DNA from: an uncultured Prevotellaceae bacterium
GTDB lineage: Bacteria; Bacteroidota; Bacteroidia; Bacteroidales; Bacteroidaceae
Direction: 5' to 3'
Assembly (NCBI GenBank): GCA_947176895.1
Contig: CAMWSK010000011.1
Span: 1 to 64,000 of the forward strand
Length of the DNA stretch: 64,000 bases
A program made the translations under genes and the position numbers. Every line of letters begins with the position of its first letter. Within the stretch, counting starts at the first letter, position 1. Positions 1 through 56,967 of this stretch are shown piece by piece. The notes under the pieces were generated by a model. That model had not been told where the DNA came from. It saw only the letters and a program-made list of their open reading frames with translations, and did no database searches.

Positions 1-378
1 ACACAGATTCCTGCATTCTTTCATATCACGGAAGCATCCGTACACGATTCTAAAGTTATGATTGAAATTCCTTATGAACCAAGCCCTTATTACATCTCTG
101 ACCGCGGTTATAACAACTTCAAAATGCTGTATAAAATTCATCAATATCATTTTGAACAATTTGAATCAATTCCATATTTACTCAATTCATGTCATTATAT
201 CCCAATCTCTTGCCAAGAGATTGGACGTTTTGCACAACATGTTGTTTTTTCCTCATCCGTGTGCTTGGATGTAAAGCCTATCTGCTCTGCCAATTTTTTA
301 CATAACGGCAAATCCACGGATTGTCCTTTTTCGGAACTAAAAAAGAAACATGGAAATGACACCGCATCGTTTCAATAA
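1..378 (+). pseudogene. IS4-family transposase remnant, truncated on both sides
   Basis: The frame is open from the first base of the window, so the 5' part lies outside. The first 48 codons read like the middle of a Bacteroidetes IS4-family (DDE) transposase: HITEASVHDSK, then EIPYEP, then YYISDRGYNNFKMLYKIH. The DRGY segment carries the second catalytic aspartate of the family. After about position 144 the resemblance stops abruptly and the reading frame drifts through unrelated sequence to a stop at 376-378, so the C-terminal region with the catalytic glutamate (YREK signature) is missing. It is a decayed, non-functional element end. The recognisable part is 1-144; the rest is only an open frame. 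Family assignment is from motif memory. Confidence 0.75.
202..224. repeat. 11-bp perfect inverted repeat
   Basis: CCAATCTCTTG at 202-212 and CAAGAGATTGG at 214-224 are exact reverse complements around a single central base. It lies in the non-coding tail of the transposase remnant. It has operator-like geometry or could be a small hairpin. No T-run follows, so it is not a standard terminator. Function unknown. Confidence 0.5.
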
Positions 379-461
379 AAACATGAGCATGTTTAGGGCA
401 AAACATGTTCATGTTTTTCAAAAACGTGTTGATGTTTTGCCTCAAATGCCGCGGTGTTTTT
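376..461. repeat. Phased palindrome array 1 (4 units)
   Basis: Four imperfect palindromes have centres at 386/387, 408/409, 429/430 and 451/452, giving spacings of 22, 21 and 22 bp. Cores are CATGA/GCATG, CATGT/TCATG, CGTGT/TGATG and a weaker TGCCG/CGGTG, each with A-rich bases on the left and T-rich bases on the right. The array lies between the IS remnant and the 3' end of the WYL-like gene. Same family as the arrays at 9041, 20581, 29197, 33680, 41783 and 56840. Confidence 0.8.
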
Positions 462-604
462 ACGGTAGACCCGCAATGTATGATCGGGTATCTTCAATGA
501 TTTGATTTCCAATATGAAGAGATGTCCCATACATTTTTGCCATGGGGGCATGAACTTCCCCGAGGACGAGCGATATGGATTGTCCGATTTTTCCTAAATA
601 AATG

Positions 605-642
605 TTAATGCGCTTCGAGCCTTTTTGCCGGAAGCGCATTAA
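605..642 (-). terminator. Stem-loop downstream of the WYL-like gene
   Basis: TTAATGCGCTTC at 605-616 pairs perfectly with GAAGCGCATTAA at 631-642 around a 14-base loop. It starts about 25 bases past the stop of the minus-strand gene ending at 668, the right place for a terminator, although the following T-run is poor. A small open frame across it (460-684) is best seen as chance. Confidence 0.5.
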
Positions 643-667
643 TAAAAGGGTAGGGGATTCTCTTTTT

Positions 668-1387
668 TCAGAACAGCTCGTCAAACAGACTTAGCTGTTC
701 CCCTTCATGATGCTTGGCAGCCGACGGCTGTTCCTCGCCATTTTCTTCATGTCCTTCAGCAACGGCGAGCGAGGCCATGCCCTCCTTAATCCATGAAGGG
801 TTGGCCTGTTTGGTGTAGATGCCGAACAGGGCCTGCATTTCCCGCGCCATTTCCTGGCGCAACTCGTCAGGGAAAAGCACCTCGACATCGGAGCGGTAGG
901 ACCAAAGCAACTGCTTCAACTCGTCGTCTATGGGGATGTTGACGGCAAACAACTCGCGCCCCGTTTCCTCCAGCGCGGCTCCACGGAGGTGAAGCACCAG
1001 TGCCTCGGCGCCCTCCACCGATTCCAGTGAGGATAACGTTTGTCGGGGAGAGGTGTCGGCATTGTAAAGCGTTTGCGCCTGACGTAGCAGGGGATTGGTC
1101 CATTTCACATTCACATACCGCAGGATTCGCTTGTGCCCGCGACGGAACCGGGGCTCCAGACGTCCTCCGCGACGCTCAAACAAATCCACATCGAGCTGCA
1201 GTTGGCGTTTGCTGCACTTGTAGGTCCGCTTGAATTGCTTCAGCTGACGGTTGACATGAGCCAAAAGGCTTCTCACGTTGCCCGTTTCTGTGTCACGCGG
1301 TCCACCCATATAAAATTCGAGTTCGGTATTGCGCAGGCACTCGTCCAGTATCTGCCAACGCAGTCTTTGCAGGTCGTTTACAATCAT
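668..1387 (-). CDS. WYL-family-like transcriptional regulator lacking a clear WYL core
   Basis: This 239-residue protein resembles Bacteroidetes WYL-domain regulators at both ends but not in the middle. The N-terminus (about residues 6-95) matches the winged-helix region: RWQILDECLRN, then SKRQLQLDVDLFE, then a basic GHKRILRYVNV segment. Residues about 150-195 (FAVNIPIDDELKQLLWSY to LFGIY) match the C-terminal WCX extension. Only about 55 residues lie between, too few for a normal WYL domain, and no W-Y-L signature is visible; the family is usually about 300-340 residues long. The C-terminus is charged and ends in LSLFDELF. A promoter (-33 TTG, -7 TATCTTTG at 1416-1423) precedes the ATG at 1387. 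It is monocistronic. DNA binding is inferred; the ligand is unknown. Confidence 0.5.
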   Translation of the reverse strand: MIVNDLQRLRWQILDECLRNTELEFYMGGPRDTETGNVRSLLAHVNRQLKQFKRTYKCSKRQLQLDVDLFERRGGRLEPRFRRGHKRILRYVNVKWTNPLLRQAQTLYNADTSPRQTLSSLESVEGAEALVLHLRGAALEETGRELFAVNIPIDDELKQLLWSYRSDVEVLFPDELRQEMAREMQALFGIYTKQANPSWIKEGMASLAVAEGHEENGEEQPSAAKHHEGEQLSLFDELF

Positions 1388-1415
1388 GGTATGCAGTTTG
1401 TTGCTTATTTGCGGG

Positions 1416-1446
1416 CAAAGATAGTGCTTCTTAGGCGTAAAAGCAA
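1416..1446 (-). promoter_or_regulatory. Bacteroidetes-type promoter of the WYL-like gene
   Basis: Read on the minus strand, TTG (1446-1444) is followed after 20 bases by TATCTTTG (1423-1416), matching the TTTG/TAnnTTTG promoter of the primary sigma factor of this phylum. The start codon at 1387 is 28 bases downstream. Confidence 0.7.
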
Positions 1447-1506
1447 GATAAATTTCATGCCGAATTGTTTTTTTGCCTCTTTGGGATGTTTTTTTTGCTT
1501 AATTAC

Positions 1507-1537
1507 TTGCGATTTAAGTAAAATGGAGTTACATTTG
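1507..1537 (+). promoter_or_regulatory. Promoter of the HU gene
   Basis: TTG at 1507-1509, a 20-base spacer and TACATTTG at 1530-1537 fit the Bacteroidetes -33/-7 pattern. The leader to the ATG at 1582 is about 40 bases and AT-rich with no Shine-Dalgarno motif. Confidence 0.7.
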
Positions 1538-1581
1538 CGTTGATGCAATTGCATTAATAAACCATTTTAAACAAACGTACT

Positions 1582-1854
1582 ATGAACAAGACAGAGTTGA
1601 TTGCAAAGGTTGCCGAGGTAGCAGGCTTGAGCAAAGTGGATTCAAAGAAGGCCATCGAGGCTGCTATCGAGGCAGTGAAGGCATCTCTGAAAGCGGGTGA
1701 GAAGGTGCAGATTCCCGGTATCATCACCTTGGATGTTACAGAGCGCGGCGAGCGCACGGGCAAGAATCCCCGCACGGGCGAGACGTTCACCATTCCTGCC
1801 AAGAAGGTCATCAAGATCAAGGCCGGTAGTGAGCTGAACGCCGTGGTGAAATAA
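1582..1854 (+). CDS. HU family DNA-binding protein
   Basis: A 90-residue nucleoid protein of the HU/IHF family, full length for the family. It begins MNKTELIAKVAEVAGLSK, the typical helical dimerisation half, and contains ERGERTGKNPRTGE, the basic DNA-wrapping arm with the conserved NP pair that intercalates into DNA, then the closing AKKVIKIKAGSEL strand. As a dimer it bends and compacts DNA without strict sequence choice. It is monocistronic with its own promoter at 1507-1537 and a strong terminator at 1902-1935. Bacteroidetes genomes usually carry several paralogues, so the specific role of this copy cannot be told. Confidence 0.95.
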   Translation: MNKTELIAKVAEVAGLSKVDSKKAIEAAIEAVKASLKAGEKVQIPGIITLDVTERGERTGKNPRTGETFTIPAKKVIKIKAGSELNAVVK

Positions 1855-1901
1855 AAGGTAAGCCGTTTGCTCAACTTAAGAAGAAATACCCTATACTGAA
1901 G

Positions 1902-1935
1902 GAGGACGAAGCCCCGGGCTTTGCCCTCTTTTTTT
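1902..1935 (+). terminator. Rho-independent terminator of the HU gene
   Basis: A GC-rich stem (GAGG outside, AAGCCC/GGGCTT inside, CCTC closing) is followed directly by an eight-T run. It sits 48 bases past the HU stop and just before the cysC promoter. Confidence 0.85.
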
Positions 1936-1966
1936 GCTTTTATACATCTGTCTCGCAGTTTTTTTG

Positions 1967-1974
1967 TACCTTTG
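1967..1974 (+). promoter_or_regulatory. -7 box of the cys/sulfotransferase operon
   Basis: TACCTTTG is a perfect TAnnTTTG element 26 bases before the cysC ATG. The matching -33 TTTG is not convincing at the usual distance, so the promoter may be weak or activator-dependent. Confidence 0.55.
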
Positions 1975-2000
1975 CAGGATAAAATCATCGGTACACGACA

Positions 2001-2591
2001 ATGGCAGAAAACATTTATCCCATCTATAAACAGATGCTCGGCCGTGAGGAGAAGGAACGCCTCTTGGGCCAGCACGGAGTGATGGTGTGGTTCACCGGGC
2101 TGAGCGGAAGCGGAAAGAGTACCGTGGCTCTGGGCGTAGAGCGCGAATTGCAAAAGCGCGGCCTGGTGTCGCAGATTCTGGACGGCGACAACATACGTCA
2201 CGGCATCAACAGCGATCTGGGCTTTTCCGTGGAGGACAGGAGAGAAAACATCCGCCGCATTGCCGAGATTGGCAAGCTGTTTGTGGGTAACGGCATCATC
2301 ACCTTGGCCTGTTTTGTCAGTCCCACCGAAGAAATCCGCCGTATGGCATGCGACATCATCGGTAAGGATGATTTTCTGGAGGTGTATGTAAGCACCTCGC
2401 TGGAGGAATGTGAGCGCCGTGACGTGAAGGGACTTTATGCCAAGGCCCGACGCGGAGAGGTGAAGGATTTCACGGGTATCAGCTCTGTTTTCGAAGCCCC
2501 GGAGAATCCGGCCTTGAGCATCAACACCGGGGAGCTGACGCTGGAGGAAAGTGTGATGGCCGTGGTGAACCTTATTCTAAACAAGCAATAA
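2001..2591 (+). CDS. cysC: Adenylyl-sulfate kinase (APS kinase)
   Basis: It phosphorylates adenosine 5'-phosphosulfate at the 3' position to give PAPS, the universal sulfate donor. At 196 residues it is of normal size. The Walker A loop GLSGSGKST is at residues 33-41 and the APS-binding DGDNIRHG segment at 61-68. A later [15 protein letters not shown] stretch ([15 protein letters not shown]) is also typical of CysC. It is the first gene of a four-gene run with cysD, cysN and a sulfotransferase, so its PAPS probably feeds sulfation. No PAPS reductase or sulfite reductase gene is nearby. Acts in the cytoplasm. Confidence 0.96.
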
Positions 2592-2619
2592 CACAACACA
2601 TACACATATTATTATATAT

Positions 2620-3528
2620 ATGGAGAATTACAATCTTTCGCATCTGAAAGAATTGGAGACCGAGAGCATCCACATCATCCGCGAGGTGGCTGCCGAGTTC
2701 GAGAATCCCGTGATGCTCTACAGTATCGGCAAGGACAGTTCTGTGATGGTTCGCCTGGCCGAGAAAGCCTTTGCCCCCGGCAAGGTGCCTTTCCCCCTGA
2801 TGCACATCGACAGCAAATGGAAGTTCAAGGAGATGATTGAGTTCCGCGACAACTATGCCAAGAAGTATGGCTGGGACCTGATCGTCGAGAGCAATATGGA
2901 GGCCTTTGAAGCCGGTGTAGGCCCCTTTACCCACGGCAGCAAGGTGCATACCGACCTGATGAAGACGAAGGCTTTGCTGGACGCGCTGGCCAAGTATAAG
3001 TTTGACGCTGCCTTTGGCGGTGCACGCCGCGATGAGGAGAAAAGCCGTGCCAAGGAGCGCATCTTCTCTTTCCGCGACAAGTTCAACCAATGGGACCCCA
3101 AGAACCAGCGTCCCGAGTTGTGGGACATCTACAACAGCCGCATACACAAAGGCGAAAGCATCCGTGTGTTCCCCCTGAGCAACTGGACCGAGCTGGACAT
3201 CTGGCAGTATATACGTCTGGAGAACATTCCCATCGTGCCCCTCTATTTTGCCAAGAAACGCCCGGTGGTGGAAATTGACGGCAATCTGATTATGCCCGAT
3301 GACGACCGTCTGCCGGCAGAATACCGCGACAGGATTCAGGAGAAGATGATCCGCTTCCGCACCTTGGGCTGCTGGCCTTTGACGGGTGCCGTGGAGAGCG
3401 AGGCTTCCACCATCGAGGAGATTGTGGAGGAGATGATGACCACTACCAAGAGCGAGCGCACCACCCGTGTGATAGACTTCGACCAGGAGGCGTCCATGGA
3501 GCAGAAGAAGCGCGAAGGTTATTTCTAA
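2620..3528 (+). CDS. cysD: Sulfate adenylyltransferase small subunit
   Basis: CysD is the catalytic ATP-sulfurylase subunit that, with the GTPase CysN, makes APS from ATP and sulfate. It has 302 residues, as usual for CysD. The PP-loop nucleotide motif appears as [10 protein letters not shown] (residues 34-43). [20 protein letters not shown] and the C-terminal [19 protein letters not shown] are hallmark CysD segments. It lies 28 bases after cysC and 12 bases before cysN, so the three are one transcript. A long antisense open frame across cysD and cysN is a coding shadow. Confidence 0.97.
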
Positions 3529-3540
3529 ACAACAGCACCT

Positions 3541-4974
3541 ATGGAACAAAGTAAAATGGATATAAAGGCATTCCTGGATGCCGATGAAAAGAAAGATTTG
3601 TTGCGTCTGCTCACGGCCGGTTCGGTGGACGACGGCAAAAGTACCCTGATCGGTCGTCTCCTGTTTGACAGCAAGAAACTGTATGAGGACCAGCTGACCG
3701 CCTTGGAGCGTGATTCGAAACGTGTGGGTAATGCCGGTGCGGGAAAAATCGATTATGCCCTGTTGCTGGATGGGCTGAAGGCTGAACGCGAGGAGGGTAT
3801 CACCATTGATGTGGCCTATCGCTATTTCTCTACCAACAAACGCAAGTTTATCATTGCCGACACTCCGGGACATGAGCAGTACACCCGCAACATGATTACG
3901 GGAGGCAGCACGGCTAACCTGGCCATCATCCTGGTGGATGCACGTACCGGAGTCATCACGCAGACCCGTCGCCACACGTTCCTGGTAAGCCTTTTGGGCA
4001 TCAAGCATGTGGTGCTTGCCGTGAACAAGATGGATTTGGTGGACTTTGACGAAAACGTATTCAACAACATCCGAAAAGAGTATCAGCAATTGGTTGACCG
4101 ACTGGATATCGAGGACGTGAGCTATTTCCCCCTCAGCGCCTTGGAGGGCGACAACGTGGTGGAGAAGAGCGACCGCACGCCTTGGTACGAGGGACCGGCC
4201 TTGCTCGACTTTCTGGAGACGGTGCCCATCCATCTGGACCGTAACATGAAAGATTTCCGTTACCCCGTGCAGTATGTACTTCGTCCCAATCTGGATTTCC
4301 GCGGCTTCTGCGGCAAAATCGCTTCGGGCGTGGTGAGGAAAGGTGACGAGGTGGTGGCCCTGCCCAGCATGAAGCACTCACGTGTGAAGGGTATCCATAC
4401 CTATGAGGGCGAACTGGATGAGGCCTTCTGCCCCATGTCGCCCGTTATTACCTTGGAGGACGAAATCGACATCTCGCGTGGTGAGATGATTGTCCACCCC
4501 GATAATATTCCTTACATCGGCCGTAATTTCGAGGCCATGCTGGTGTGGATGGACGAGGAACCGATGGACAGGAACAAGCAGTTCTTCATCAAGCACAATA
4601 CCAACACGTCACGCAGCGTTATCCAAAGCATCGAATACCGTGTGGATGTGAACACCATGGAGCATCTGGCACCCGAATCGTTCAAGCTGAACGAGATTGG
4701 TTGCGTACACATCACCACGGCAAAGAGTCTTTATTTCGATGCCTACAAGAAGAACAAGCAGACGGGTGCATTCATCCTTATCGACCCCATCACTAACTAC
4801 ACCAGTGCCGTTGGCATGATTGTCCGCCCTCTTGAGGAGGATTCAATGAACGTAATCGAGGTTCCCACCATCGACATGAAGAAACTGGGTATTGGCGGGG
4901 AGCACACCGAAGCACTGGAAAAGGCTGTGAAGGAACTTAATCGTCAGGGCATTGAAGTTAAACTCGTCAAGTAA
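3541..4974 (+). CDS. cysN: Sulfate adenylyltransferase large subunit (GTPase)
   Basis: CysN is the EF-Tu-like GTPase that drives APS formation by CysD. The 477-residue protein has G1 GSVDDGKST at 27-35, a switch-[14 protein letters not shown] near residue 107 and the G4 NKMDLVD near 162, followed by two beta-barrel domains. There is no fused C-terminal APS kinase domain, which fits the separate cysC upstream. It is 12 bases after cysD; the next gene begins 9 bases after its stop. ATP sulfurylase is assembled from this subunit and CysD in the cytoplasm. Confidence 0.97.
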
Positions 4975-4983
4975 GTATTGTCT

Positions 4984-6105: not shown

Positions 6106-6126
6106 GGCGATAAATAAATTCGAAGA

Positions 6127-8006: not shown

Positions 8007-8007
8007 T

Positions 8008-8898
8008 TTAAACACCCTGGATGGTTACATCCAATCCCTTGGCAATCTTTGAAATCATGCCTTGCAAAGCTTTGCCGGGACCGCACTCGGTGAACTCGGT
8101 GGCACCTGCCGCCAACATATTCTGGACCTCCTGTGTCCAACGCACACTTGCAGTGAGCTGGGCAATCAGGTTCTGCTTGATCTCGTTGGCATCGGTGTGA
8201 GCCTTGCCGTCGACATTCTGGTATACGGGACACATAGGTGCCATGAATTCGGTTTCGGCAATGGCTTTCTCCAATTCTTCTTTGGCAGGTTGCATCAGAG
8301 GGGAATGGAAAGCACCGCCCACAGGCAAAGGCAGAGCACGTTTGGCACCGGCCTCCTTACATTTCTCACATGCAAGTTCCACGGCTTCCTTGTTACCGCT
8401 GATCACCAACTGGCCGGGATTGTTGTAGTTGGCACAGACAACGGGCTTCTCTTCGGTGCTGATTTCCGCACAAATCCGTTCAATCTGCTCATCGGGCAAT
8501 CCGATAATTGCCGCCATGCCACCGGGCACAACATCGCAGGCCTTTTGCATAGCCAAGGCACGTGCATGCACAAGTCGCAAAGCGTCCTCAAACTTCAAGG
8601 CGCCACTGGCAGCCAAAGCACTGAACTCACCCAAAGAATGGCCGCCGACCATATCGGGCTGGAACTCATCACCCAAGCAGATGGCTGTGATTACGCTATG
8701 AAGAAACACGGCAGGCTGGGTGACCTTTGTCTGTTTCAGGTCCTCTGCGGTGCCCTCAAACATAATGTCAGTAATGCGGAAACCTAAAATCTCGTTGGCC
8801 TTTTCAAACAACTCTTTTGCAGTTGCATTACTCTCATACAGGTCTTTACCCATACCTGTGAACTGTGCTCCCTGACCGGGGAAAACAAATGCTTTCAT
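8008..8898 (-). CDS. fabD: Malonyl-CoA:ACP transacylase
   Basis: FabD moves the malonyl group from CoA to acyl carrier protein for fatty acid elongation. The 296-residue protein starts MKAFVFPGQGAQ, has the nucleophile elbow GGHSLGEFSAL with Ser88, and later GGAFHSPLM with the catalytic histidine. The length is normal. A TACCTTTG -7 box lies on the minus strand at 8945-8952, 46 bases before the ATG. The downstream amylase gene starts within a few bases of its stop. The divergent region to carA holds palindrome array 2. Confidence 0.97.
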   Translation of the reverse strand: MKAFVFPGQGAQFTGMGKDLYESNATAKELFEKANEILGFRITDIMFEGTAEDLKQTKVTQPAVFLHSVITAICLGDEFQPDMVGGHSLGEFSALAASGALKFEDALRLVHARALAMQKACDVVPGGMAAIIGLPDEQIERICAEISTEEKPVVCANYNNPGQLVISGNKEAVELACEKCKEAGAKRALPLPVGGAFHSPLMQPAKEELEKAIAETEFMAPMCPVYQNVDGKAHTDANEIKQNLIAQLTASVRWTQEVQNMLAAGATEFTECGPGKALQGMISKIAKGLDVTIQGV

Positions 8899-9040: not shown

Positions 9041-9125
9041 AAAAACATCAACATGTTCTCATCAAAACATGAACATGTTTTTAAAAAAGATGAACATGTT
9101 TTCCCCAAAACATCCACATGCTTTT
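9041..9125. repeat. Phased palindrome array 2 (4 units)
   Basis: Units are centred at 9050/9051, 9072/9073, 9093/9094 and 9115/9116, with spacings of 22, 21 and 22 bp. Cores are CATCA/ACATG, CATGA/ACATG, GATGA/ACATG and CATCC/ACATG, each between A- and T-runs. The array lies in the divergent region between fabD and carA, about 105 bases upstream of the carA -7 box. A lone related ACATGTT motif at 9013 is out of phase. Confidence 0.85.
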
Positions 9126-9432: not shown

Positions 9433-10518
9433 ATGAAAAGGGCAACATTAAGGCTACAAGATGGTACCGAGTTTCAAGGTTATGCCTTTGGAGCGGATTT
9501 GGCCACATCCGGTGAGGTGGTGTTCAACACGGCTATGGCCGGCTATCCGGAAACTCTGACCGATCCCTCCGGATCCGGTCTGATTATGGTTCTTACCTAT
9601 CCTTTGGTGGGAGGCTATGGCGTTCCTTCTGTAGAGGCAAAGGAAGCGAACGGTCTGTACAGTTTCATGGAGAGTGAAAAGATCTGCGTGAAAGCAATTG
9701 TCGTAGGCGACTATAGCCCCGAGTTCTCTCATTGGAATGCTAAGGAAAGCCTGGACGCGTGGATGAAACGTGAAGGCATCCCCGGTATCACCGGCGTTGA
9801 CACTCGCCAGTTGACCAAGATGTTGCGTGATAAAGGGACTATGATGGGTACCATCATTCCCGAGGGCGTTTCTGCCTCTGAACCTCAAGTTGAGGACGCT
9901 AATTTGGTGGAGTTGGCAAGTTGCAAGGATGTAATCACCTATCAACCCACGGGTACACCAGTCGGAAAGCGGGTGGTACTGGTGGATTGTGGTGTAAAAC
10001 ATTCGACAATCAAATACTTGCTGGATTGTGGCTTAGAGGTTGTTCGCGTGCCTTGGAACTATGATTTCAACGAATTGTCCTTTGACGCTTTATTCCTGGC
10101 CGATGGTCCGGGCAATCCGGATATGTGTGTGGCCACAATAGAAAATATTAAGAAATTCCTGGCCAATCCCACGGTTCGGCCCTGTATGGGAATCTGTCTT
10201 GGCAATCAGTTGCTCGCCAAGGCTGCCGGGGCAACAACCTCCAAACTTAAATATGGTCACCATGGCCACAGCATTCCCGTTCGTGAGGTAGGTTCTACCA
10301 AATGCTATGTCACTACCCAGAACCACAACTACGCGGTGGATGCTTCTACGCTGAACAGCGATTGGGAGGAATGGTTCCAAAATATGAATGACGGCTCGAA
10401 CGAAGGCGTTCGTCATAAGAAAAATCCCTGGTTTGCCGTTCAGTTCCATCCGGAAACCAATCCCGAAGCCGGCGATACGAAAAATCTCTTAAATAAATTC
10501 ATTGAAACATTGAAATAA
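9433..10518 (+). CDS. carA: Carbamoyl-phosphate synthase small subunit
   Basis: CarA hydrolyses glutamine and passes ammonia to CarB for carbamoyl phosphate, used for pyrimidines and arginine. It has 361 residues. The class I glutamine amidotransferase nucleophile Cys255 is in MGICLGNQLL (GNQ where many bacteria have GHQ), with His339 and Glu341 in QFHPET. The N-terminal half is the CarB-binding domain. The carB ATG is 36 bases after its stop. Expression is probably governed by the leader and attenuator just upstream. Confidence 0.97.
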   Translation: MKRATLRLQDGTEFQGYAFGADLATSGEVVFNTAMAGYPETLTDPSGSGLIMVLTYPLVGGYGVPSVEAKEANGLYSFMESEKICVKAIVVGDYSPEFSHWNAKESLDAWMKREGIPGITGVDTRQLTKMLRDKGTMMGTIIPEGVSASEPQVEDANLVELASCKDVITYQPTGTPVGKRVVLVDCGVKHSTIKYLLDCGLEVVRVPWNYDFNELSFDALFLADGPGNPDMCVATIENIKKFLANPTVRPCMGICLGNQLLAKAAGATTSKLKYGHHGHSIPVREVGSTKCYVTTQNHNYAVDASTLNSDWEEWFQNMNDGSNEGVRHKKNPWFAVQFHPETNPEAGDTKNLLNKFIETLK

Positions 10519-13869: not shown

Positions 13870-13911
13870 CAAAAACATGGCGATGAACGAACCATAATAT
13901 CGCCTTGTTTC
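13870..13911. repeat. Partial palindrome array (2 units) at the 5' edge of the PepSY gene
   Basis: CATGG/CGATG is centred at 13880/13881 and a degenerate TATCG/CCTTG at 13902/13903, 22 bp apart with A- and T-rich flanks, matching the family spacing. It occupies exactly the place where the signal peptide of the PepSY-like gene should be. The second unit is weak. Confidence 0.5.
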
Positions 13912-14303: not shown

Positions 14304-14413
14304 AAAAGGGGCTGTGACGTAATTAAGGTTTATCTGGCACCGCAGACCCTGAAAAAACATCTTGATGTTTTTCAGGGTACCGGGATGCTGTATATTACGG
14401 CACAGCCTCTTTT
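14304..14413. repeat. 110-bp inverted-repeat element with nested hairpin
   Basis: AAAAGGGGCTGTGACGTAAT (14304-14323) is nearly the complement of the sequence at 14394-14413, with two mismatches. Inside, ACCCTGAAAAA (14346-14356) pairs with TTTTTCAGGGT (14368-14378) around a single palindrome unit, CATCT/TGATG. The nested structure lies between two convergent genes and may also stop transcription in both directions. Confidence 0.7.
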
Positions 14414-20412: not shown

Positions 20413-20955
20413 CGAGCATATATTTATGCACGTTTTTATCCATACAGGGTTCCAAGGTAAAAAACTTTTCCAATAGGTTAACATCTTTTGTTTGCATTGA
20501 TGTCATCATAACAGACAAGAATCGTACAATATCATAATCACGTTATTATCAAGAGCTTGCATTTGTACACACATTTTACGGAAAACATCATGATATTTCG
20601 GCAAAAACATCACGATGTTTTTCAAAAACGTCTTGATGAATGAATCAAAACATCGCGGTGAATCACTTCGTTCACCGCGATGTTTGCACCAACAACACCG
20701 GACGTACATTTTTTCTCTTCAAATAATTTTATTTTTATCTGGAAGCATCTTGCTGAAATCCTCAGCAGATTGCATAATAATGAATGTATCATTATGACAA
20801 AAACAACCCAACAAAATAGAATAGAGATTATGTTTAATCCGTAAATGCAAAACAGATAATTATTTTACGAGAACCCATACGTAAAGCAACATAGGATGGA
20901 TGTTATTTGGTGAATCCCTTAAAATTGTGAAGACTCCCTATGTTGTCTTTGACGC
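20413..20955. other. 543-base intergenic region with an array and an inverted repeat
   Basis: Between the convergent oxidoreductase and GNAT genes the sequence is AT-rich. It holds palindrome array 3 (20581-20685) and a distant inverted repeat CAACATAGG/CCTATGTTG (20887-20895 with 20937-20945) that might help end the GNAT transcript. The rest shows no convincing gene; small open frames here run through the array. Confidence 0.6.
20581..20685. repeat. Phased palindrome array 3 (5 units)
   Basis: Centres are at 20590/20591, 20612/20613, 20633/20634, 20655/20656 and 20677/20678, with spacings of 22, 21, 22 and 22 bp. The last two units are mutual reverse complements: the 15 bases at 20648-20662 pair perfectly with 20671-20685 across an eight-base loop. 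Cores vary (CATCA/TGATA, CATCA/CGATG, CGTCT/TGATG, CATCG/CGGTG, CACCG/CGATG) while spacing is constant. Confidence 0.85.
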
Positions 20956-29128: not shown

Positions 29129-29196
29129 TTTTTGCTTGTTAACGTGAATCCGATGAATTTTAATTGTCTGTAAAAAATCCCCCTCCACGAGTTCCC

Positions 29197-29283
29197 GAAA
29201 AAACATCAACACGTTTTTTAAAAACATGAACACGTTTTCAAAAAACATGAACATGTTTCCCGGCAAACATTAACATGCCTTCT
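29197..29283. repeat. Phased palindrome array 4 (4 units)
   Basis: Centres are at 29208/29209, 29229/29230, 29250/29251 and 29272/29273 (21, 21, 22 bp). Cores are CATCA/ACACG, CATGA/ACACG, CATGA/ACATG and CATTA/ACATG with A/T flanks. The array lies in the divergent region between cstA and the aromatic operon, about 160 bases upstream of the latter's promoter. The bases from 29284 to 29440 hold nothing recognisable. Confidence 0.85.
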
Positions 29284-33679: not shown

Positions 33680-33737
33680 TTCACCGCGACGTTATTGAAA
33701 AACATCGCGGTGTTTTGTCTCATTCACTGCGGTGAAA
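33680..33737. repeat. Phased palindrome array 5 (3 units)
   Basis: Centres are at 33686/33687, 33707/33708 and 33729/33730 (21, 22 bp). Cores are CACCG/CGACG, CATCG/CGGTG and CACTG/CGGTG, the GC-rich flavour also seen at the end of array 3. The array lies between convergent tyrA and fmt, immediately after the inverted repeat at 33592-33672. Confidence 0.8.
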
Positions 33738-40732: not shown

Positions 40733-41698
40733 ATGACAAGCGAGAAGAAACCTTATGTGATTGGATTGGATTTAGGCGGCACCAACTCTGTATTCGGCAT
40801 TGTGGACGCCAATGGATATGTAGTGGAGCAGGTGAGTGTAAAGACTGCCGGACACGGTCCCGAACCCCAACACTACGTAAGTGATTGTGTGGAGGCCCTG
40901 ATGCCTGCTATTGAGAAAGTGGGAGGATTAGGTAATATACAAGGTATGGGTATCGGAGCGCCCAACGCCAACTACTACACCGGATGCATTGAGTTTGCCC
41001 CCAACCTGCCTTGGAGCGGCACCAACATTCCTCTTGCCGACCTGTTCAGCAAGGCGTTGGGCGGTCTGCGCGTGACCATCACCAATGATGCCAATGCAGC
41101 CGCACAGGGCGAGATGATGTATGGTCTGGCCAAAGACATGAAGAATTTTATAATGATTACGTTGGGCACAGGCGTGGGAAGCGGTATCGTATGCGACGGA
41201 AAACTGGTATATGGCAGCGACGGGTTGGCCGGAGAGTTGGGCCACGTGGTGGTGGAACCCAACGGACGTCAGTGCGGCTGCGGACGAAAAGGTTGTCTGG
41301 AAACCTATTGCTCGGCTACGGGTGTGGCACGCACTGCGCGACAGATTCTCACCGAAACCGACGAGCCATCACTGCTCCGCAACATCCCTTTGACCGAGTT
41401 GGAAAGCAAAGATGTGAGCATCGCTGCCAACCAGGGTGATAAAGTGGCCAAGGAAATCATGGATTTCACCGGACATATGCTGGGCATCGCATGTTCCAAC
41501 TTCGCGTGCTTCAACAGCCCCGAGGCGTTTATCTTTTTCGGCGGACTTACAAAGGCTGGCGATTTGCTGATGAAGCCCATCAAGGAAGCCTATGACGAGA
41601 ACGTCCTGAAATGCTATGCCGGCAAGGCCCGCTTCTATGTGAGCGAACTGGACGATGCCAAAGCTGCCATCCTGGGTGCCAGTTCCCTGGGTTGGTAA
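40733..41698 (+). CDS. ROK family glucokinase
   Basis: A 321-residue sugar kinase that phosphorylates glucose (or a related sugar) with ATP. GLDLGGTNSVFGIVD is the phosphate-1 loop, ITNDANAAAQGE holds the catalytic Asp, and GHVVVEPNGRQCGCGRKGCLE (read in parts) is the ROK zinc site with its cysteines. ITLGTGVGSGIV is the phosphate-2 motif. A TATCTTTG box at 40689-40696 precedes it. It is monocistronic with a terminator at 41725-41764. Confidence 0.92.
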   Translation: MTSEKKPYVIGLDLGGTNSVFGIVDANGYVVEQVSVKTAGHGPEPQHYVSDCVEALMPAIEKVGGLGNIQGMGIGAPNANYYTGCIEFAPNLPWSGTNIPLADLFSKALGGLRVTITNDANAAAQGEMMYGLAKDMKNFIMITLGTGVGSGIVCDGKLVYGSDGLAGELGHVVVEPNGRQCGCGRKGCLETYCSATGVARTARQILTETDEPSLLRNIPLTELESKDVSIAANQGDKVAKEIMDFTGHMLGIACSNFACFNSPEAFIFFGGLTKAGDLLMKPIKEAYDENVLKCYAGKARFYVSELDDAKAAILGASSLGW

Positions 41699-41782: not shown

Positions 41783-41848
41783 CAAAAACATGTTCATGTT
41801 TTCAAAAAACGTGTTCATGTTTTTGAAATTCATGTTCATGTTTTTTTT
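41783..41848. repeat. Phased palindrome array 6 (3 units)
   Basis: Centres are at 41793/41794, 41814/41815 and 41835/41836, exactly 21 bp apart. Cores are CATGT/TCATG, CGTGT/TCATG and CATGT/TCATG with A- and T-runs. The array lies between the glucokinase terminator and the purL promoter, in a tandem intergenic space, so it is not tied to convergent or divergent gene order. Confidence 0.85.
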
Positions 41849-41971: not shown

Positions 41972-44900
41972 ATGTCCCCGATTATGGCAATTACCTTTTT
42001 CAAAACCCCTGAGAGAAATATTATCGCCACACAAAGCGACCATCTGCTCACCCCGGAGGAAATCGAAAAATTGTGCTGGCTCTATGGAGGAGCCACCTCT
42101 TTGACAGACATGCGGCTTGACGGCTGGTTCATCGGTCCCCGCCGAGAGATGATCACCCCTTGGAGTACAAACGCCGTGGAGATTACCCAAAACATGAACA
42201 TTTCCGGCATCATGCGCATCGAGGAGTATTTCCCTGTAAGCTCGGCAGAGGCAGACCACGACCCCATGCTGCAACGCATGTACGAGGGTCTGAACCAGGA
42301 CATCTTCACCGTAAACCTGCAGCCGGCAGCCATTCAGATGATTGAGAATCTGGATGAATACAACGAGCAGGAGGGTCTGGCCCTAAGCCCCGAGGAGATT
42401 GCCTACCTCCATGATGTGGAGAAGCAACTGGGCCGCAAACTCACCGACAGCGAGGTGTTCGGCTTCGCACAAATCAACAGCGAGCACTGCCGTCACAAAA
42501 TCTTCGGCGGAACCTTCATTATCGACGGCGAGGAAAAGACTTCAAGCCTCTTCGCCATGATTAAAAAGACCACGCAGGAGAATCCCCACAAAATTATTTC
42601 CGCCTATAAAGATAATGTGGCCTTCGCCGAGGGACCCGTCATCGAGCAGTTCGCACCCGTGGACCACTCCACCAGCGACTATTTTATAATCAAAGATATA
42701 GAGAGCGTTATCAGCATTAAAGCTGAAACTCATAATTTCCCCACTACCGTGGAGCCTTTCAACGGCGCGTCCACGGGTACTGGCGGTGAGATACGCGACC
42801 GTATGGGTGGCGGTGTAGGCTCATGGCCCATTGCAGGCACAGCCGTATATATGACTTCCTATCCCCGCACAGATGCCGACCGCGAATGGGAACAGATACT
42901 GCCTGTGCGTAAATGGCTCTATCAGACTCCCGAGCAAATCCTCATCAAGGCCAGCAACGGTGCCAGCGACTTCGGCAACAAGTTCGGCCAGCCCTTGATT
43001 ACAGGTTCCGTGCTCACCTTTGAGCATCAGGAAAACGGCGAGAAATACGGGTACGACAAGGTAATCATGCTTGCCGGCGGTGTGGGTTACGGCACCAAGC
43101 GTGACTGTCTGAAAGGCGAGCCCAAGAAGGGAAACAAGATTGTGGTGGTCGGTGGTGAAAACTACCGCATCGGACTGGGCGGCGGCAGCGTGAGCAGTGT
43201 GGATACGGGCCGTTACAGCAGCGGTATCGAGTTGAACGCCGTGCAGCGTGCCAACCCCGAGATGCAAAAACGCGCCTGCAACCTGGTGCGTGCCCTCTGT
43301 GAAGAGGATGTGAACCCCGTGGTGAGCATCCACGACCACGGCAGTGCCGGCCACGTGAATTGTCTCAGCGAACTGGTGGAGGAATGCGGCGGTCTGATTG
43401 ACATGAAGAATCTGCCCGTGGGTGACAAGACCCTTTCGGCCAAAGAAATCATTGCCAACGAAAGCCAAGAGCGTATGGGTCTGCTGATTCAGGAGGAGCA
43501 TCTGGAACATGTGCGCAAGATTGCCGAACGCGAGCGTGCACCCATGTATGTGGTGGGCGAAACCACAGGCGATGCCCATTTTGCCTTTGAGCAAGCCGAT
43601 GGTGTTCGTCCCTTCGATTTGGATGTGGCACAGATGTTCGGTCACTCGCCCAAGACCGTCATGCGCGACAACACCAAGGTTCGCACCTATGAAAATGTGA
43701 CATATAGCGCCGCCGAGCTGCAGGAATACGTGAACCGTGTGCTGCAACTGGAGGCCGTGGCTTGTAAAGACTGGTTGACTAACAAGGTGGACCGTAGCGT
43801 GACAGGTAAGGTGGCACGCCAACAATGCCAGGGTGAAATCCAGTTGCCCCTGAGCGACTGCGGCGTGGTAGCCCTCGACTATCGTGGTCGCAAGGGCATC
43901 GCCACGGCACTGGGTCATGCTCCCCAGGCCGCTTTGGCCGACCCCGCAGCCGGCAGTGTGCTGAGCGTGGCCGAGAGCCTGACCAATATCGTGTGGGCGC
44001 CACTGAGCCAAGGGCTGGACAGCGTGAGCCTGAGCGCCAACTGGATGTGGCCCTGCCGCTCTCAGGAGGGCGAGGACGCACGTCTGTATCAGGGTGTTGA
44101 GGCGCTCAGTAATTTCTGCTGCGCACTGAAGATTAACGTGCCTACGGGTAAGGACAGCCTGTCTATGACCCAGAAATATCCCGACGGCGAGAAAGTTATC
44201 AGCCCGGGAACCGTGATTGTCACCAGCGGCGGCGAGGTGAGTGACATACGCAAGGTGGTGAGTCCCGTGATGCAAAACGACCCAACATCTGCCATATATC
44301 ACATTGACTTTTCATTCGACCGGCTTCGTCTGGGCGGCTCAGCCTTTGCACAGAGTCGCGGCAAGATAGGTAGCGATGTGCCTACCGTAAAAGACACGGA
44401 TTACTTCCGTTCGGCCTTCAACGCCGTGCAGCAGTGCATCGAGGAGGGTATCCTGCTGGCCGGTCACGATATTTCCGCCGGCGGTCTCATCACCACCCTA
44501 TTGGAGATGAACTTCGCCAACACAGACGGCGGCATGAAGATTAATCTCGACGGCTTCAAGAACGAAGACGTGGTGAAGGTGTTGTTTGCCGAGAATCCGG
44601 GTGTTGTGGTTCAGGTAGCCGACAAGAACAAGAAACGCTTCCTGGAGATTCTGTCCGAGGCCGGCGTAAGTTGTCTGTTGCTCGGTGCTCCTCAGGAAGA
44701 GCGTGTGATAGAGATTGAGCACGAAGGTGCCGAATATTTGTTTGAAATCGACTACCTGCGTGATGTGTGGTACAGCACCAGCTATCTGCTCGACCGCAAT
44801 CAAAGCCATAACGGAAAAGCCAAAGAACGCTTCGAGAACTATAAGAAGCAACCCTTGGAGATGGCCTTCAACAAGGACTTCTCCGGCACACTGGCCCAAT

Positions 44901-45676
44901 ATGGCATCAGTGCCGACCGCCGTGAAAAGAGCGGTGTGCGTGCCGCCATCATCCGCGAGAAGGGCACCAATGGCGAACGCGAGATGGCCTATAGCCTCTA
45001 TCTGGCCGGCTTTGATGTGAAGGATGTGATGATGACCGATCTTATCAGCGGTCGTGAGACACTGGAAGACGTGAATATGATTGTTTTCTGTGGAGGTTTC
45101 TCCAACAGCGATGTGCTGGGATCAGCCAAGGGATGGGCAGGCGCCTTCCTTTATAATCCCAAAGCCAAGGAAGCGCTGGACAAGTTCTACGCACGTCGAA
45201 ACACACTCTCATTGGGCATCTGCAACGGCTGTCAGCTGATGGTTGAATTAGGTCTGACAGGGCATCCTAAGGCCAAGATGCTGCACAACGACAGTCATAA
45301 ATTCGAAAGCGAATTTGTAACCGTTACCATTCCCACCAACCGCAGCGTGATGTTCGGCTCTCTGAGTGGCAACAAGCTGGGTATCTGGGTGGCGCATGGC
45401 GAAGGCAAGTTCTGTCTGCCCGGAAGTGAAGATGACTACAACGTGATTGCCAAATACTCTTACGACGGTTATCCCGCCAACCCCAATGGTTCAGACTTCA
45501 GCGTGGCAGGTATCTGCAGCGAAGACGGACGCCATCTGGCTATGATGCCTCATTTGGAACGTGCCATCTTCCCCTGGCAGAATGCCTGGTATCCCACCAA
45601 TCGCCGCATGGACGAAGTGACGCCTTGGATTGAGGCTTTTGTAAATGCCCGTAAGTGGATTGAGACGCATGAATAA
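41972..45676 (+). CDS. purL: Phosphoribosylformylglycinamidine synthase
   Basis: It makes FGAM from FGAR, glutamine and ATP, the fourth step of purine synthesis. At 1,234 residues it is the large single-chain form that fuses the PurS-like, synthase and glutaminase parts. Early [18 protein letters not shown] is the synthase signature, with [25 protein letters not shown] after it. The C-terminal glutaminase has its nucleophile in [16 protein letters not shown] and the HGEGKF motif. An ATG at 41987 is another possible start. The following chromate transporter gene starts inside its last codons. Confidence 0.97.
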   Translation: [1234 protein letters not shown]

Positions 45677-51019: not shown

Positions 51020-51056
51020 GTCTGTAATTTTCCTTGTACTAATTCATATATAGGGG

Positions 51057-52340: not shown

Positions 52341-52356
52341 GTTTGTTAGAGGTTGT

Positions 52357-53208: not shown

Positions 53209-53238
53209 TGTTTTATTCTATTTTATCGTCGCAACGTA

Positions 53239-53269
53239 CAAAAGTACGAATAAATCGCGTATTTAGCAA
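53239..53269 (-). promoter_or_regulatory. Promoter of hisGDCB
   Basis: On the minus strand TTG (53269-53267), 20 bases, then TACTTTTG (53246-53239). The ATG at 53208 is 30 bases away; there is no room for a His-rich leader peptide, unlike the aromatic operon. Confidence 0.7.
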
Positions 53270-53289
53270 CAAAAATACTCAAAAGCGCA

Positions 53290-56250
53290 TCATTCTGTCA
53301 CGCATACGACACCCATTCTATGCAATCCGTCAACTTTTATCACCAAAGGCTTGGCAAAGCGCACATGGCGGACGTGTTCTGTTTCCTCCACGGCAGGCAT
53401 ACTGTTTAACACATCCTCCCGATAGATGCCATCATTGCAAAACGCGTTAATGGTGAAATAGCTTACACCCAATGACGTTAAGTTCTGAAAGAAGTGCGTG
53501 CCTTGACTGGGGTCTACTTGGAAATCGCGCAGGCCGGCCTCCACTATCACCTTGGCACCACTGATATGCGGCCACTTTACGGGAACCCCAAGCCACGAAT
53601 CGCTGGAGCCCCACCTGCCCGGTCCAATCAACACATAACCGGCCGGATTCCCGTCATCCAGGAAGCGGCGGTTTATCCTTTCCATCTCTTCGGCAATGGC
53701 AGGATTGAGTGCGGGGCGATAGCCTTCGGTCTTGACATATACCACGTCCACCACATCCTCCACGATGCCGTGGCCTATAGCCTGCTGACTCTTAAGCAAG
53801 CAATCGGAATCTGGAACCAGCGTCAGGTCCTCGTCTAACGTCATGCGCTGGTCCACCATCGGACGAATCTGCAGCAGGCAGAACCGGGCCGTCTTATCGG
53901 GCTGAAGGTTACAGGCAAATTCTATTTCCACAGGGCGGCGCATCTCCTCCTGTCCGTTCTTGAGCACCATCTGAAGCACACGGGGCAAAGGTATCACATC
54001 ATGCTGCAGCACACCCGAGAAACTGATAAGTTTTCGGTTCTTCCCTTCATAGAAACCATCATAGATACATTGGTCCACAGGGTCGTAAGTACTACATATC
54101 CACTGCAGCTCGCCATCCTTTTCCGCCTCCCTCACAGGATAGGAACGCAGGTTAAAGCCATCGTCTGTCTGAAAATCAAGCTTCACATTCTCCAGGTCCA
54201 GCGCCAGGAACTTCGTCTGCGTGTCTTTCAAGGCGATATCCATTTCACTCATCTGCAAGATTTTGTTGGGATGGTAAGGGCTCAGGCGCAAGCTTTGTCC
54301 GCCATCCACGATATATTTTCCCAAACCCAGAGCCAGCGACACCGTACCCTCCTCGGGCAGTTCGTCGCCCAAGGGATAATAGTTCAGACTTCTGGCCACA
54401 CCGCTCATCGTGGGATAGAAGCGGTTGCCATGCCGATGTCCCACTACCTCTTGCAGGATGATGGCCATTTTCTCCTGATCGATAAGGTTGGATGTAGCCG
54501 TCATATAATCCTTCGATGCGCGGAAGAATACGGATGCATACACCGCCTTGATGGCGTTGGACAGCATTTCCAGACGTTCATAATTATCCTCCACATAGGG
54601 TATCATGTAGGTTGAATAGACACCTGCAAAGGGTTGATAATGGCTGTCTTCCAGCAAAGACGAGGAGCGAATGGCGATGGGTGACTTCACCACCTCCATA
54701 AAGGCCATCAGGTCACTGAGCAGACGTTGGGGTAAACGGGCATGAAGAAAGTATTGAAGCATCTCCTCATCGGGGATGTCGGTCAATGCCACCTGGTAAA
54801 GCTCGTTTGTCTCCATGTATTCGCTGAACACATCCGTGCACAGGACCACCGTCTTGGGAATGGTCAGCAGCACACCCGGAATCTGTGTCATCTCACGATG
54901 CTTCTTGATGATATGGTCCAGGAATGCCAGGCCACGCCCCTTTCCGCCCAGCGATCCGTCGCCAATGCGGGCGAAATTGCTATACTGGTCAAAGCGCTCG
55001 CGTTGGAACACAGCCACCACACCCTGATTTTTCATTTTACGATAGGCTACGATGGCATCGAAAATTATCTGGCGGTGGGCGTCGATGTCCTGCAAGGATT
55101 CCCACGTGATGCGCTTAAGGAACTCGCTGATGGGAAACAGTGCACGCGAACAGAGCCAGCGCGACACATTGTTGTGCGTCACATGATAGAGCAGCGATTC
55201 GGCCGGCACCGTAAAGATGTTTTCCTGCAAATCCTTCAGATTGCGGCAACGGCACACCTCTTCCATGGTGGCGGGATTGCGGAAAATGAAATCGCCAAAG
55301 CCAAAATATTTGTCCAAAAGGCAACGCAAATCCACGTCCAACTTTTTGCTGCCCTTATCGATAAACGAAGCATTGCACTGCGTTGCCAGCTCGCTTCCCG
55401 TACTTTCCGAACTTTCCATCACCAAAGGCACAAAGGGGTCGGCCTGACGTATCCGGCTGAGCAACTTAAAGCCTGCCAGTTCATCAATCTTCCCGTCCTT
55501 CATGAACCGGCAATCGGAAATCACTCCCAGCGTATTGTCTTTAAACCGGTCATACAGACTCCAGGCCTCCTCATAGTTTCGTGCCAACACAATCTTCGGA
55601 CGGCCGCGCATCCGCAATGTTTCAAGGTGGGCGTTCAACGCTTCGCCGGCAAAAGCCAGGCTCTGCTGCAGCACATATTTATAAAGGTAAGGAAGGATGC
55701 TGCTGTAAAAACGAATATTATCTTCCACCAACATCAACATCTGCACACCCGCCACCTCAATATCGTGGTCCAGGTTCATCTTGTCCTCGATAAGCTTGAT
55801 GATGGAAAGCAACAGATCGGTGTTGCCCAGCCAACAGAACACATATTCGAAGATGGACAGGTCCTCGTCCTGCATGCGGCGTGCGATGCCATGACTGAAA
55901 GGCGTGAGCACCACAATAGGTATGCCGGGGTGAGCCTGCTTGATGCTGCGTGCAATCGTGAACACGTCATTGTTGTCCGTGCCTGGCATGCAGATAATCA
56001 GGTCGGGAGTAAGAATCCTCATCTGTTCCTCCGCTTCTGTTTCCGTGGCAGCCTGGATGAAACGCGGCGGATAGCGCAAGCCCAGCCGGGCATATTCCTG
56101 GAAAATCTTCTCCTCCACACGACCGTCATCCTCAAGCATGAACATGTCGTAGGGGTTGGCCACAATCAGCACATTAAAGATTCTGCGCACCATCAGTTCC
56201 ACGAACGGTATGTCGTGCAACTGCATCTTCTCATCTATATCCTTCGTCAT
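53290..56250 (-). CDS. Receiver-like/PEP-synthase-like hybrid protein
   Basis: A 986-residue protein with an unusual order of parts. Residues about 25-155 and 165-330 look like two response-regulator receiver folds (FNVLIVANPYDMFMLEDDGR, then PDLIICMPGTDNNDVF; and VQMLMLVEDNIRFYSSIL, then GVISDCRFMKDGKIDELAG). From about residue 430 comes a PEP-synthase/PPDK N-terminal ATP-grasp (GDGSLGGKGRGLAFLD, PIAIRSSSLLEDSHYQPFAG, QIRPMV). The phosphohistidine swivel domain and the PEP-binding barrel are absent, so it is not a true PEP synthase. The C-terminus has GYVLIGPGRWGSSDSWLGVP. It is monocistronic with a TACTTTTG box at 56273-56280. Nucleotide-dependent phosphotransfer or signalling is inferred. 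Confidence 0.8.
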   Translation of the reverse strand: MTKDIDEKMQLHDIPFVELMVRRIFNVLIVANPYDMFMLEDDGRVEEKIFQEYARLGLRYPPRFIQAATETEAEEQMRILTPDLIICMPGTDNNDVFTIARSIKQAHPGIPIVVLTPFSHGIARRMQDEDLSIFEYVFCWLGNTDLLLSIIKLIEDKMNLDHDIEVAGVQMLMLVEDNIRFYSSILPYLYKYVLQQSLAFAGEALNAHLETLRMRGRPKIVLARNYEEAWSLYDRFKDNTLGVISDCRFMKDGKIDELAGFKLLSRIRQADPFVPLVMESSESTGSELATQCNASFIDKGSKKLDVDLRCLLDKYFGFGDFIFRNPATMEEVCRCRNLKDLQENIFTVPAESLLYHVTHNNVSRWLCSRALFPISEFLKRITWESLQDIDAHRQIIFDAIVAYRKMKNQGVVAVFQRERFDQYSNFARIGDGSLGGKGRGLAFLDHIIKKHREMTQIPGVLLTIPKTVVLCTDVFSEYMETNELYQVALTDIPDEEMLQYFLHARLPQRLLSDLMAFMEVVKSPIAIRSSSLLEDSHYQPFAGVYSTYMIPYVEDNYERLEMLSNAIKAVYASVFFRASKDYMTATSNLIDQEKMAIILQEVVGHRHGNRFYPTMSGVARSLNYYPLGDELPEEGTVSLALGLGKYIVDGGQSLRLSPYHPNKILQMSEMDIALKDTQTKFLALDLENVKLDFQTDDGFNLRSYPVREAEKDGELQWICSTYDPVDQCIYDGFYEGKNRKLISFSGVLQHDVIPLPRVLQMVLKNGQEEMRRPVEIEFACNLQPDKTARFCLLQIRPMVDQRMTLDEDLTLVPDSDCLLKSQQAIGHGIVEDVVDVVYVKTEGYRPALNPAIAEEMERINRRFLDDGNPAGYVLIGPGRWGSSDSWLGVPVKWPHISGAKVIVEAGLRDFQVDPSQGTHFFQNLTSLGVSYFTINAFCNDGIYREDVLNSMPAVEETEHVRHVRFAKPLVIKVDGLHRMGVVCVTE

Positions 56251-56483
56251 TTCTGTACATTTCCTAAACGCACAAAAGTACGAAATTTTTCGTACCGTTG
56301 TCGCATATAATCAGAAAAACACCTGGTTGACTGTCAGGAAAAAAACATTTCTAACTGCATCCCCCTAACAGCTTTTGGCCGTAAAAAATCATATTGCCTG
56401 CAAGATTGTCTCACAAGGAACTTTTACGATTCTTTCCTCTTTCTCGTTTTTTTGCAGTACTTTTGTATCATATAAAACGAAAG

Positions 56484-56711
56484 ATGATGGACGAGATGTT
56501 ACTTAGGGTGGCGGTGGATACCATCACTGCCGAGATTGAAAAAGACGGCAATAACGCAAACCTTTTCCGCGAACGGGGCAGACTGCGCTTTCAGTTGGGT
56601 ATGGAAAAAGAGGCAATGGAGGACCTGAGACAGGCTGTTGCCCTCAATCCCGAGCTGGTGAACGAAATTGCCAACGGGCAGTTTGAGGGAAAAATTGGAA
56701 GTTGCCACTAA
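56484..56711 (+). CDS. Small TPR protein
   Basis: About 75 residues, mostly helical, with one clear tetratricopeptide repeat (FRERGRLRFQLGMEKEAMEDLRQAVALNPE) and a preceding helix. A TACTTTTG -7 box at 56458-56465 lies 18 bases before the ATG pair at 56484/56487. No signal peptide. TPRs bind other proteins; the partner is unknown. It is convergent with ribH, with palindrome array 7 between them. Confidence 0.7.
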   Translation: MMDEMLLRVAVDTITAEIEKDGNNANLFRERGRLRFQLGMEKEAMEDLRQAVALNPELVNEIANGQFEGKIGSCH

Positions 56712-56839
56712 ACAGAACGCTAAAACATGTAAAATCACCCGCTTGTCCTGCCGGGAACCGCGAGACACCTGCGGATGGTTTCGCCGGAAGGAAACAGAAA
56801 ATTGTTTGACGTTGATTGTCAAGCGTTTGGATATTCATA

Positions 56840-56967
56840 AAAAAACGTCTTGATGTTTGAGGAAAACCATGTGGACATTTCGCCTGAAACATGAGGATGT
56901 TTTCAAAAAACATGAACACGTTTTCATTGAAACATGAGGACGTTTGTCTCAAATCACCGTGATGTAC
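56840..56967. repeat. Phased palindrome array 7 (6 units, the longest)
   Basis: Centres are at 56850/56851, 56872/56873, 56894/56895, 56915/56916, 56937/56938 and 56959/56960, with spacings of 22, 22, 21, 22 and 22 bp. Cores are CGTCT/TGATG, CATGT/GGACA, CATGA/GGATG, CATGA/ACACG, CATGA/GGACG and CACCG/TGATG. It lies just beyond the ribH terminator. From 56712 to 56839 nothing else is recognisable. Confidence 0.85.

Follow-up and report, generated by a model that had tools for sequence, protein, structure and literature searches.

Intergenic arrays of an 18-bp quasi-palindrome, phased at 21 or 22 bp and regularly spaced along a Bacteroidales genome

Introduction

Chromosome layout and separation are little known in the Bacteroidales, which are dominant gut bacteria, and to our knowledge no sequence-specific chromosome organiser has been described in this order. 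The stretch of DNA analysed here (the window; 64,000 nucleotides from an uncultured Prevotellaceae bacterium) raises the question of what is served by short palindromes that recur in its intergenic gaps at a nearly constant pitch. A sequence-only reading of the window had taken them for an undescribed family, either a cooperative binding platform for a nucleoid, segregation or regulatory protein or a repeat spread by mobile elements.

Results and discussion

Arrays in the window

The window belongs to a Bacteroidales MAG (G000; 2.42 Mb, 53 contigs, 88% complete). Its placement in the Bacteroidales rests on window genes that include a fused purL, cysDN and ribH, and on the nearest named relatives of its carA, among them that of a Prevotellaceae MAG, at 63%. 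The repeated unit is an 18-bp quasi-palindrome, with the G000 form AAAACATSNNSATGTTTT, mostly present in three to five tandem copies at a pitch of 21 or 22 bp. The following features are seen.

378..438, unstranded, three-unit array (units at 378, 400 and 421; pitch 22, 21)
9042..9124, unstranded, four-unit array (units at 9042, 9064, 9085 and 9107; pitch 22, 21, 22)
14354..14371, unstranded, lone unit AAAACATCTTGATGTTTT
20582..20642, unstranded, three-unit array (units at 20582, 20604 and 20625)
29141..29157, + strand, terminal inverted repeat of a MITE-like element, two mismatches from AACGTGAGTTCGATGAA and with a degenerate counterpart at the other end
29200..29281, unstranded, four-unit array within the MITE-like element (pitch 21, 21, 22)
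33699..33716, unstranded, one CATCGCGGTG-type unit (a weak second unit lies 22 bp downstream)
41785..41844, unstranded, three-unit array (pitch 21, 21)
56842..56946, unstranded, five-unit array (pitch 22, 22, 21, 22)

The array at 9042..9124 occupies the divergent gap between fabD (8008-8898, -) and carA (9433-10518, +), that at 41785..41844 a tandem gap between a glucokinase-like gene (40733-41698, +) and the fused purL (41972-45676, +), and that at 56842..56946 a convergent gap adjoining ribH (57033-57524, -). Six of the seven array sites proposed earlier (at 376, 9041, 20581, 29197, 41783 and 56840) were recovered, together with the single unit reported near 14351, at 14354-14371. The seventh site, 33680-33737, amounts to one strong and one weak unit, no supported unit is present at 13870, where a two-unit partial array had been placed, and the 32 units originally counted become 24 at those sites when a learned matrix is applied.

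By eye, the array at 20582..20642 is followed by a longer hairpin with a CATCGCGGTG arm. This second motif, CATCGCGGTG/CACCGCGATG (window positions 20640-20685 and 33680-33737), forms a hairpin beside one array and occurs as single copies elsewhere; it may represent a separate terminator-like repeat.

Abundance and pitch across the genome

A genome-wide scan, which the sequence-only reading had proposed as a check, places the cores far above chance, with 568 matches to AAAACATSNNSATGTTTT at up to two mismatches against 2 for the reversed control pattern. A tighter two-unit pattern allowing zero mismatches gave 101 forward and 114 reverse matches in G000 and none in the control. The 21-22 bp pitch extends well beyond the sites first noted: in 464 kb searched at up to three mismatches, neighbouring units less than 100 bp apart give 97 distances, of which 90 measure exactly 21 or 22 bp, six 42-44 bp and one 74 bp. 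In 860,872 bases of G000 we located 69 arrays with at least two units, 62 of them with at least three, and the spacings inside the 69 arrays are 20 bp (1), 21 bp (93), 22 bp (77), 43 bp (1) and 44 bp (5). A test contig, C7 (80 kb), contributes four more arrays with at least three units. The palindrome-array family is thus real and larger than first noted, with about 170 arrays per genome when the 62 arrays in 860,872 of 2,421,262 bases are extrapolated. Nearly the same array opens two contigs (C1:17 and C7:15), and so the arrays seem to break the assembly.

Symmetry, orientation and gene context

Analysis of 246 units showed that positions 8 and 11 covary, G..C being exchanged for C..G (128/31/37/38, Fisher p=2.6e-6). 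At positions 6 and 13 a transition affects the left half in 33 units, the right half in 35 and both halves in none, against 4.7 expected by hand from those counts, as would be predicted if a dimer can cope with weakness in one of its half-sites. At the central step, 154 of the 246 units read AA or TT, and only 27 are self-complementary, where 80 are expected. Orientation is clear in 41 of the 62 arrays with at least three units, and it shows no preference relative to GC skew (19 vs 22) or, in tandem gaps, relative to neighbouring transcription (11 same, 12 opposite).

Placement is intergenic for nearly all arrays, as first proposed: 7 of 69 overlap a predicted ORF, and a further four lie at contig or sample edges. 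Nor are the arrays tied to one gene orientation, again in agreement with the earlier reading, since those with at least two units occupy 29 tandem, 18 convergent and 11 divergent gaps, where all gaps of at least 120 bp comprise 117, 49 and 59, respectively; measured against these gaps, the preference for a gap type is not significant (chi-square by hand 3.5, 2 df). Within the gap the arrays tend to the middle, with a mean offset of 0.16 of the gap against 0.25 (KS p=0.016; 46 arrays of G000).

These properties bear on two explanations. The first is that the units act in RNA, as hairpins or intrinsic terminators. The A-runs to the left and T-runs to the right of the units, as well as the hairpin observed by eye beside the 20581 array, would be in keeping with such a role, which is nevertheless disfavoured to the point of being highly improbable: orientation is random with respect to transcription, arrays are also present in divergent gaps, AA or TT prevails at the centre, and no Rfam family matches the window. 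The covarying halves, the random orientation and the lack of a significant gap-type preference make RNA and polar functions in general unlikely.

The second explanation, which we consider improbable, is a boundary or roadblock that insulates adjacent transcription units, or alternatively a large regulon. It would account for the intergenic placement, the mid-gap tendency and the slight, statistically non-significant excess of convergent gaps (18 vs about 13 expected). It does not predict the even spacing over 5-30 kb described below, the gap-type preference on which it might draw is not significant, and positions beside orthologous genes are not significantly shared between related genomes. 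The 18-bp unit, its pitch, its intergenic placement, the indifference to orientation and the covariation of half-sites are visible in the sequence itself, as are the regular spacing in G000, the better conservation of units than of flanks and the species-specific cores described below.

Regular spacing along the chromosome

The surprising part of the finding, and one that lay beyond the view of a first reading confined to 64 kb, is the even spacing of the arrays along the chromosome. For arrays with at least three units on the same contig, the 53 distances have a mean of 14.0 kb, a coefficient of variation (CV) of 0.41 and a minimum of 5.2 kb. Random placement in intergenic gaps of at least 100 bp yields a CV of 0.87 +- 0.10, and none of 3000 simulations gave a value as low as 0.41; distances below 4 kb, 24% of the total under random placement, are not observed among the 53. 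Once C7 and ten more positions among the matches listed are added, there are 66 distances with a CV of 0.46, and one of them falls under 5 kb, where an exponential distribution of equal mean predicts 28%. Taken alone, C7 (distances of 10.5, 40.5 and 19.8 kb) speaks neither for nor against regularity. Inclusion of the two-unit arrays gives 60 distances, C7 not among them, with a CV of 0.50 and smallest values of 0.13, 2.4 and 3.6 kb.

A MITE-like element carrying some of the arrays

A 17-bp terminal inverted repeat, AACGTGAGTTCGATGAA, is present in 32 copies at up to three mismatches (reversed control 0) and lies 30-80 bp from 14 of the 62 arrays. The suggestion that the family was spread by mobile elements finds partial support in these 14; at the same threshold no such repeat was detected beside the other 48. 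Repeats lacking an array occur at C8:49020-49523, C6:31327-31413, C2:50413 and C3:89446, and they constitute a separate MITE-like family. A search for an autonomous partner between terminal repeats on contig C8, with translations examined by eye, revealed no transposase-like genes.

The arrays could be a mobile repeat family with no host function, copied as MITE cargo or by a transposase, in which case the even spacing would be the product of target immunity, a bound protein or transposase excluding nearby copies. We regard this as the main rival of the reading proposed below and as the less likely of the two, although terminal repeats (32 vs 0 in the control) lie beside 14 of the arrays and the order of units looks alike, by eye, in many arrays. 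The Y1 (RAYT) transposase is absent from the G000 assembly, and the units are conserved as the flanks decay. The latter was seen in 11 four-unit MITE-borne copies, chosen from 16 aligned and compared with gaps scored as differences: mean pairwise identity at contact positions is 94% for units 2-4 and 83% for unit 1, and mean flank identity is 52% on the left, a value lowered by the poorly aligning left flanks of C4_99345 and C9_2077, and 65% on the right. Judged by this contrast between unit and flank, selection, or conversion, acts on the units.

The exclusion of neighbours also seems to be tied to the array. Each of the 14 copies that carry an array keeps at least 5.7 kb from the nearest other array, so that none falls within 5 kb, whereas 55% of 186 gaps devoid of arrays do (P about 1e-5). 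Among 13 terminal repeats that have no array at the usual distance, six are found less than 5 kb from an array, two of them closer than 0.4 kb and perhaps belonging to the same element. Small as the numbers are, this suggests that exclusion follows the array rather than the MITE-like element.

Different cores and the same layout in relatives

The nearest sampled relative by carA (67%), G023, has 33 arrays with at least three units in 832 kb, a density biased upward because its contigs were partly chosen for units already known. The pitch is 22 bp, sometimes 21 bp, the core is AAAACATATATATGTTTT, and the mid-gap offset is 0.17 (p=0.11; 17 arrays). Spacing again tends to be even, with a CV of 0.34 over 13 distances, against 0.75 expected (P=0.0013). 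The flanks of the 33 arrays match one another only over short lengths (16 matches at E<=0.01), which also weighs against a mobile repeat.

A generic exact two-unit pattern is positive in 15 of 139 same-genus genomes, G000 included (2 genomes with the reversed control), and cores among the 15 include ACTTAAGT and ACTGCAGT. The system is therefore not universal, unless further cores went undetected, as happened with that of G029 (AACATCCGGATGTT), which other pattern searches picked up. G110 has about 24 sparse arrays in 2.6 Mb by pattern, with same-contig distances of 4.0, 7.5, 10.9 and 83 kb that are not regular; by eye, its best conserved palindrome seems to be GTGTTG-N6-CAACAC. Palindromes sought de novo in other relatives produced weak signals. 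Across the order, 11 of 392 other genomes had one hit each to the exact pattern, which is not above the reversed control, with 10. When the pattern was loosened at a pitch of 22, G427 had 19 matches, G441 12, and G343 and G410 4 each, all with controls of 0; G070 and G215 gave 4 each with controls of 2 and 3, and lower counts elsewhere look like background. A scan of IMG/VR for the unit pair with the G000 core returned no match. On the strength of these comparisons, the core words are species-specific and the architecture constant.

G000 and G023 have few array positions in common, which indicates that the sites turn over: among 87 reciprocal-best genes, 2 array-bearing gene sides are shared and 14 and 7, respectively, are private (p=0.19). 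In one divergent gap, the G000 version contains an array and measures about 290 bp, against about 100 bp for the array-free G023 version; one gene pair that is adjacent in G023 is separated in G000, where each gene lies beside an array, which suggests a rearrangement through arrays. Both observations, each a single case, would be compatible with a mobile repeat.

Arrays in Parabacteroides distasonis and other database records

A BLAST search with a window array gave one weak match in a plasmid collection, to Parabacteroides distasonis (81% over 48 bases, E=0.006), which on direct inspection is a four-unit array. With this array as the query, 13 P. distasonis records were matched, along with 4 Lactiplantibacillus plasmids over about 35 bases. 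The P. distasonis records are labelled plasmids, yet the two examined, NZ_OY725801.1 and NZ_OY725758.1, carry polA, leuS, mutS and ruvB; given these housekeeping genes, they look like mislabelled chromosome contigs. In a sample of 250,000 bases of one record and the whole of the second (338 kb), we found 11 arrays with a pitch of 22 bp (one of 21) and the core AAAACACGTACGTGTTTT. By hand comparison with the annotation, ten lie between genes, and the remaining one shares about 29 bp with an annotated gene start. The 9 distances are more even than expected from uniform positions (P=0.024 for the CV, 0.016 for the minimum).

A human faecal scaffold, MT835984.1, an unverified phage deposit, carries a three-unit array whose sequence is close to the core found in the window (E=1e-6). 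Its long ORFs (495, 600 and over 1,000 aa) look chromosomal, and it may be a Bacteroidales chromosome fragment.

Candidate binding proteins

No binding protein was identified; of the candidates examined, neither ParB/Noc nor ArgR is supported. A single ParB match is present in 17 of 18 genomes, G127 has a second, weaker one, and no extra ParB-like protein appears elsewhere. The ParB loci were read for the helix at C8:60006-60287 in G000 and on contig C68 in G023, from translations that in both cases lack the N terminus, and the wrong-strand frames of G032 and G125 were left out; the reading helix, GKSRSAVTN, is common to the two despite their different cores. The helices read in other species of the genus, GKKRATITN and GKNR[AT]TVTN, differ from it in a manner that the cores do not explain, and the test is therefore not absolute. 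Sites resembling parS number 2 against 1 in the control, in the G000 and G023 samples alike. ArgR is single-copy in 11 of 12 genomes, and its recognition helix, Q-[AT]-[TM]-L-S-R-D-L, is conserved in the 8 of 11 loci in which it is legible (not G023, G110 or G134).

Three tandem ORF6N-domain genes (NZ_OY725801.1, 59598-61331) begin 178 bp from a P. distasonis array, and G000 contig C7 (18544-19347) encodes a relative, 64% identical, of a KilA-N protein from that record. The ORF6N and KilA-N proteins are possible candidates for DNA-binding proteins.

Proposed role

After the genome-wide scan, the earlier proposal of a platform bound cooperatively by a nucleoid, segregation or regulatory protein remains the best reading. 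We are about half persuaded that the arrays are double-stranded docking platforms for a dimeric protein with a chromosome-wide role; protein binding, cooperativity and that role are inferred. With three to five copies of the 18-bp operator two helical turns apart, dimers of a single sequence-specific protein would be aligned along the same face of the helix and bind the array cooperatively. The genome would keep one such platform about every 14 kb in intergenic gaps, irrespective of gene orientation. Its most likely use would be to mark or anchor the chromosome (nucleoid organisation, domain marking or a nucleoid-occlusion-like signal), not to control neighbouring genes. Copies may have been seeded partly as MITE-like cargo and retained where coverage was needed.

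A more specific version, which we put forward tentatively, is a chromosome-marking system in which a fast-changing dimeric protein reads species-specific palindromes whose arrays, kept at even intervals of some 10-30 kb, organise the nucleoid or mark DNA as self. The 18-bp operator, the 21-22 bp pitch and the number of units (three to five) would be conserved, and the word would be swapped as a set. If true, this would be a naturally occurring example in which some 170 arrays per genome and the DNA-binding protein that reads them change together. Phased, regularly spaced operator arrays would offer direct handles on chromosome organisation in the Bacteroidales; as they occur in the culturable Parabacteroides distasonis, the binding protein should be retrievable and the arrays removable.

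Comparison with known systems

ARG boxes (18 bp, 3 bp apart) and plasmid iterons (repeats of about 22 bp) are read from one face of the helix. The arrays resemble both in geometry but are chromosomal and dispersed. A search of the chiefly open-access literature, with subscription papers mostly outside it, located no description of them, in line with the initial view that the family is undescribed.

The nearest described repeat, going by the portions of the paper available, is the BrickBuilt MITE of Porphyromonas gingivalis (PMC4596501), which is likewise found in Bacteroidales, intergenic and of limited host range. It comprises 23-nt tandem units in a MITE with terminal inverted repeats, and the unit number varies between copies (19 in strain ATCC 33277, with 1 to 22.8 units), as it does here. 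In its main text no palindromic unit is reported, the string "palindrom" being absent, and the portions available contain no report of a regular spacing; the G000 arrays are regular, most are without a detected terminal repeat, and they consist of 18-bp quasi-palindromes with covarying halves.

The REP/BIME/REPIN sequences associated with RAYT, as described in the accessible part of PMC3116915, are also species-specific, short, imperfect intergenic palindromes numbering in the hundreds, and REPIN doublets are randomly distributed in extragenic space. The G000 arrays differ in their regular spacing (CV 0.41 vs 0.87 +- 0.10) and fixed pitch. A REPIN/RAYT system was set aside, as PF01797 (Y1) has 0 matches in the 88% complete G000 assembly and is found in 5 of 14 control genomes.

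The SlmA sites of E. coli and the Noc sites of B. subtilis, to the extent covered by the excerpts of PMC12203958, are dispersed short operators with a sequence-specific protein. Unlike these, the arrays described here present 3-5 units per place at a fixed 21/22-bp pitch, with regular spacing and species-specific cores. As far as the consulted portions of these sources go, the combination of phased arrays, species-specific cores and regular spacing distinguishes the G000 arrays from every system compared.
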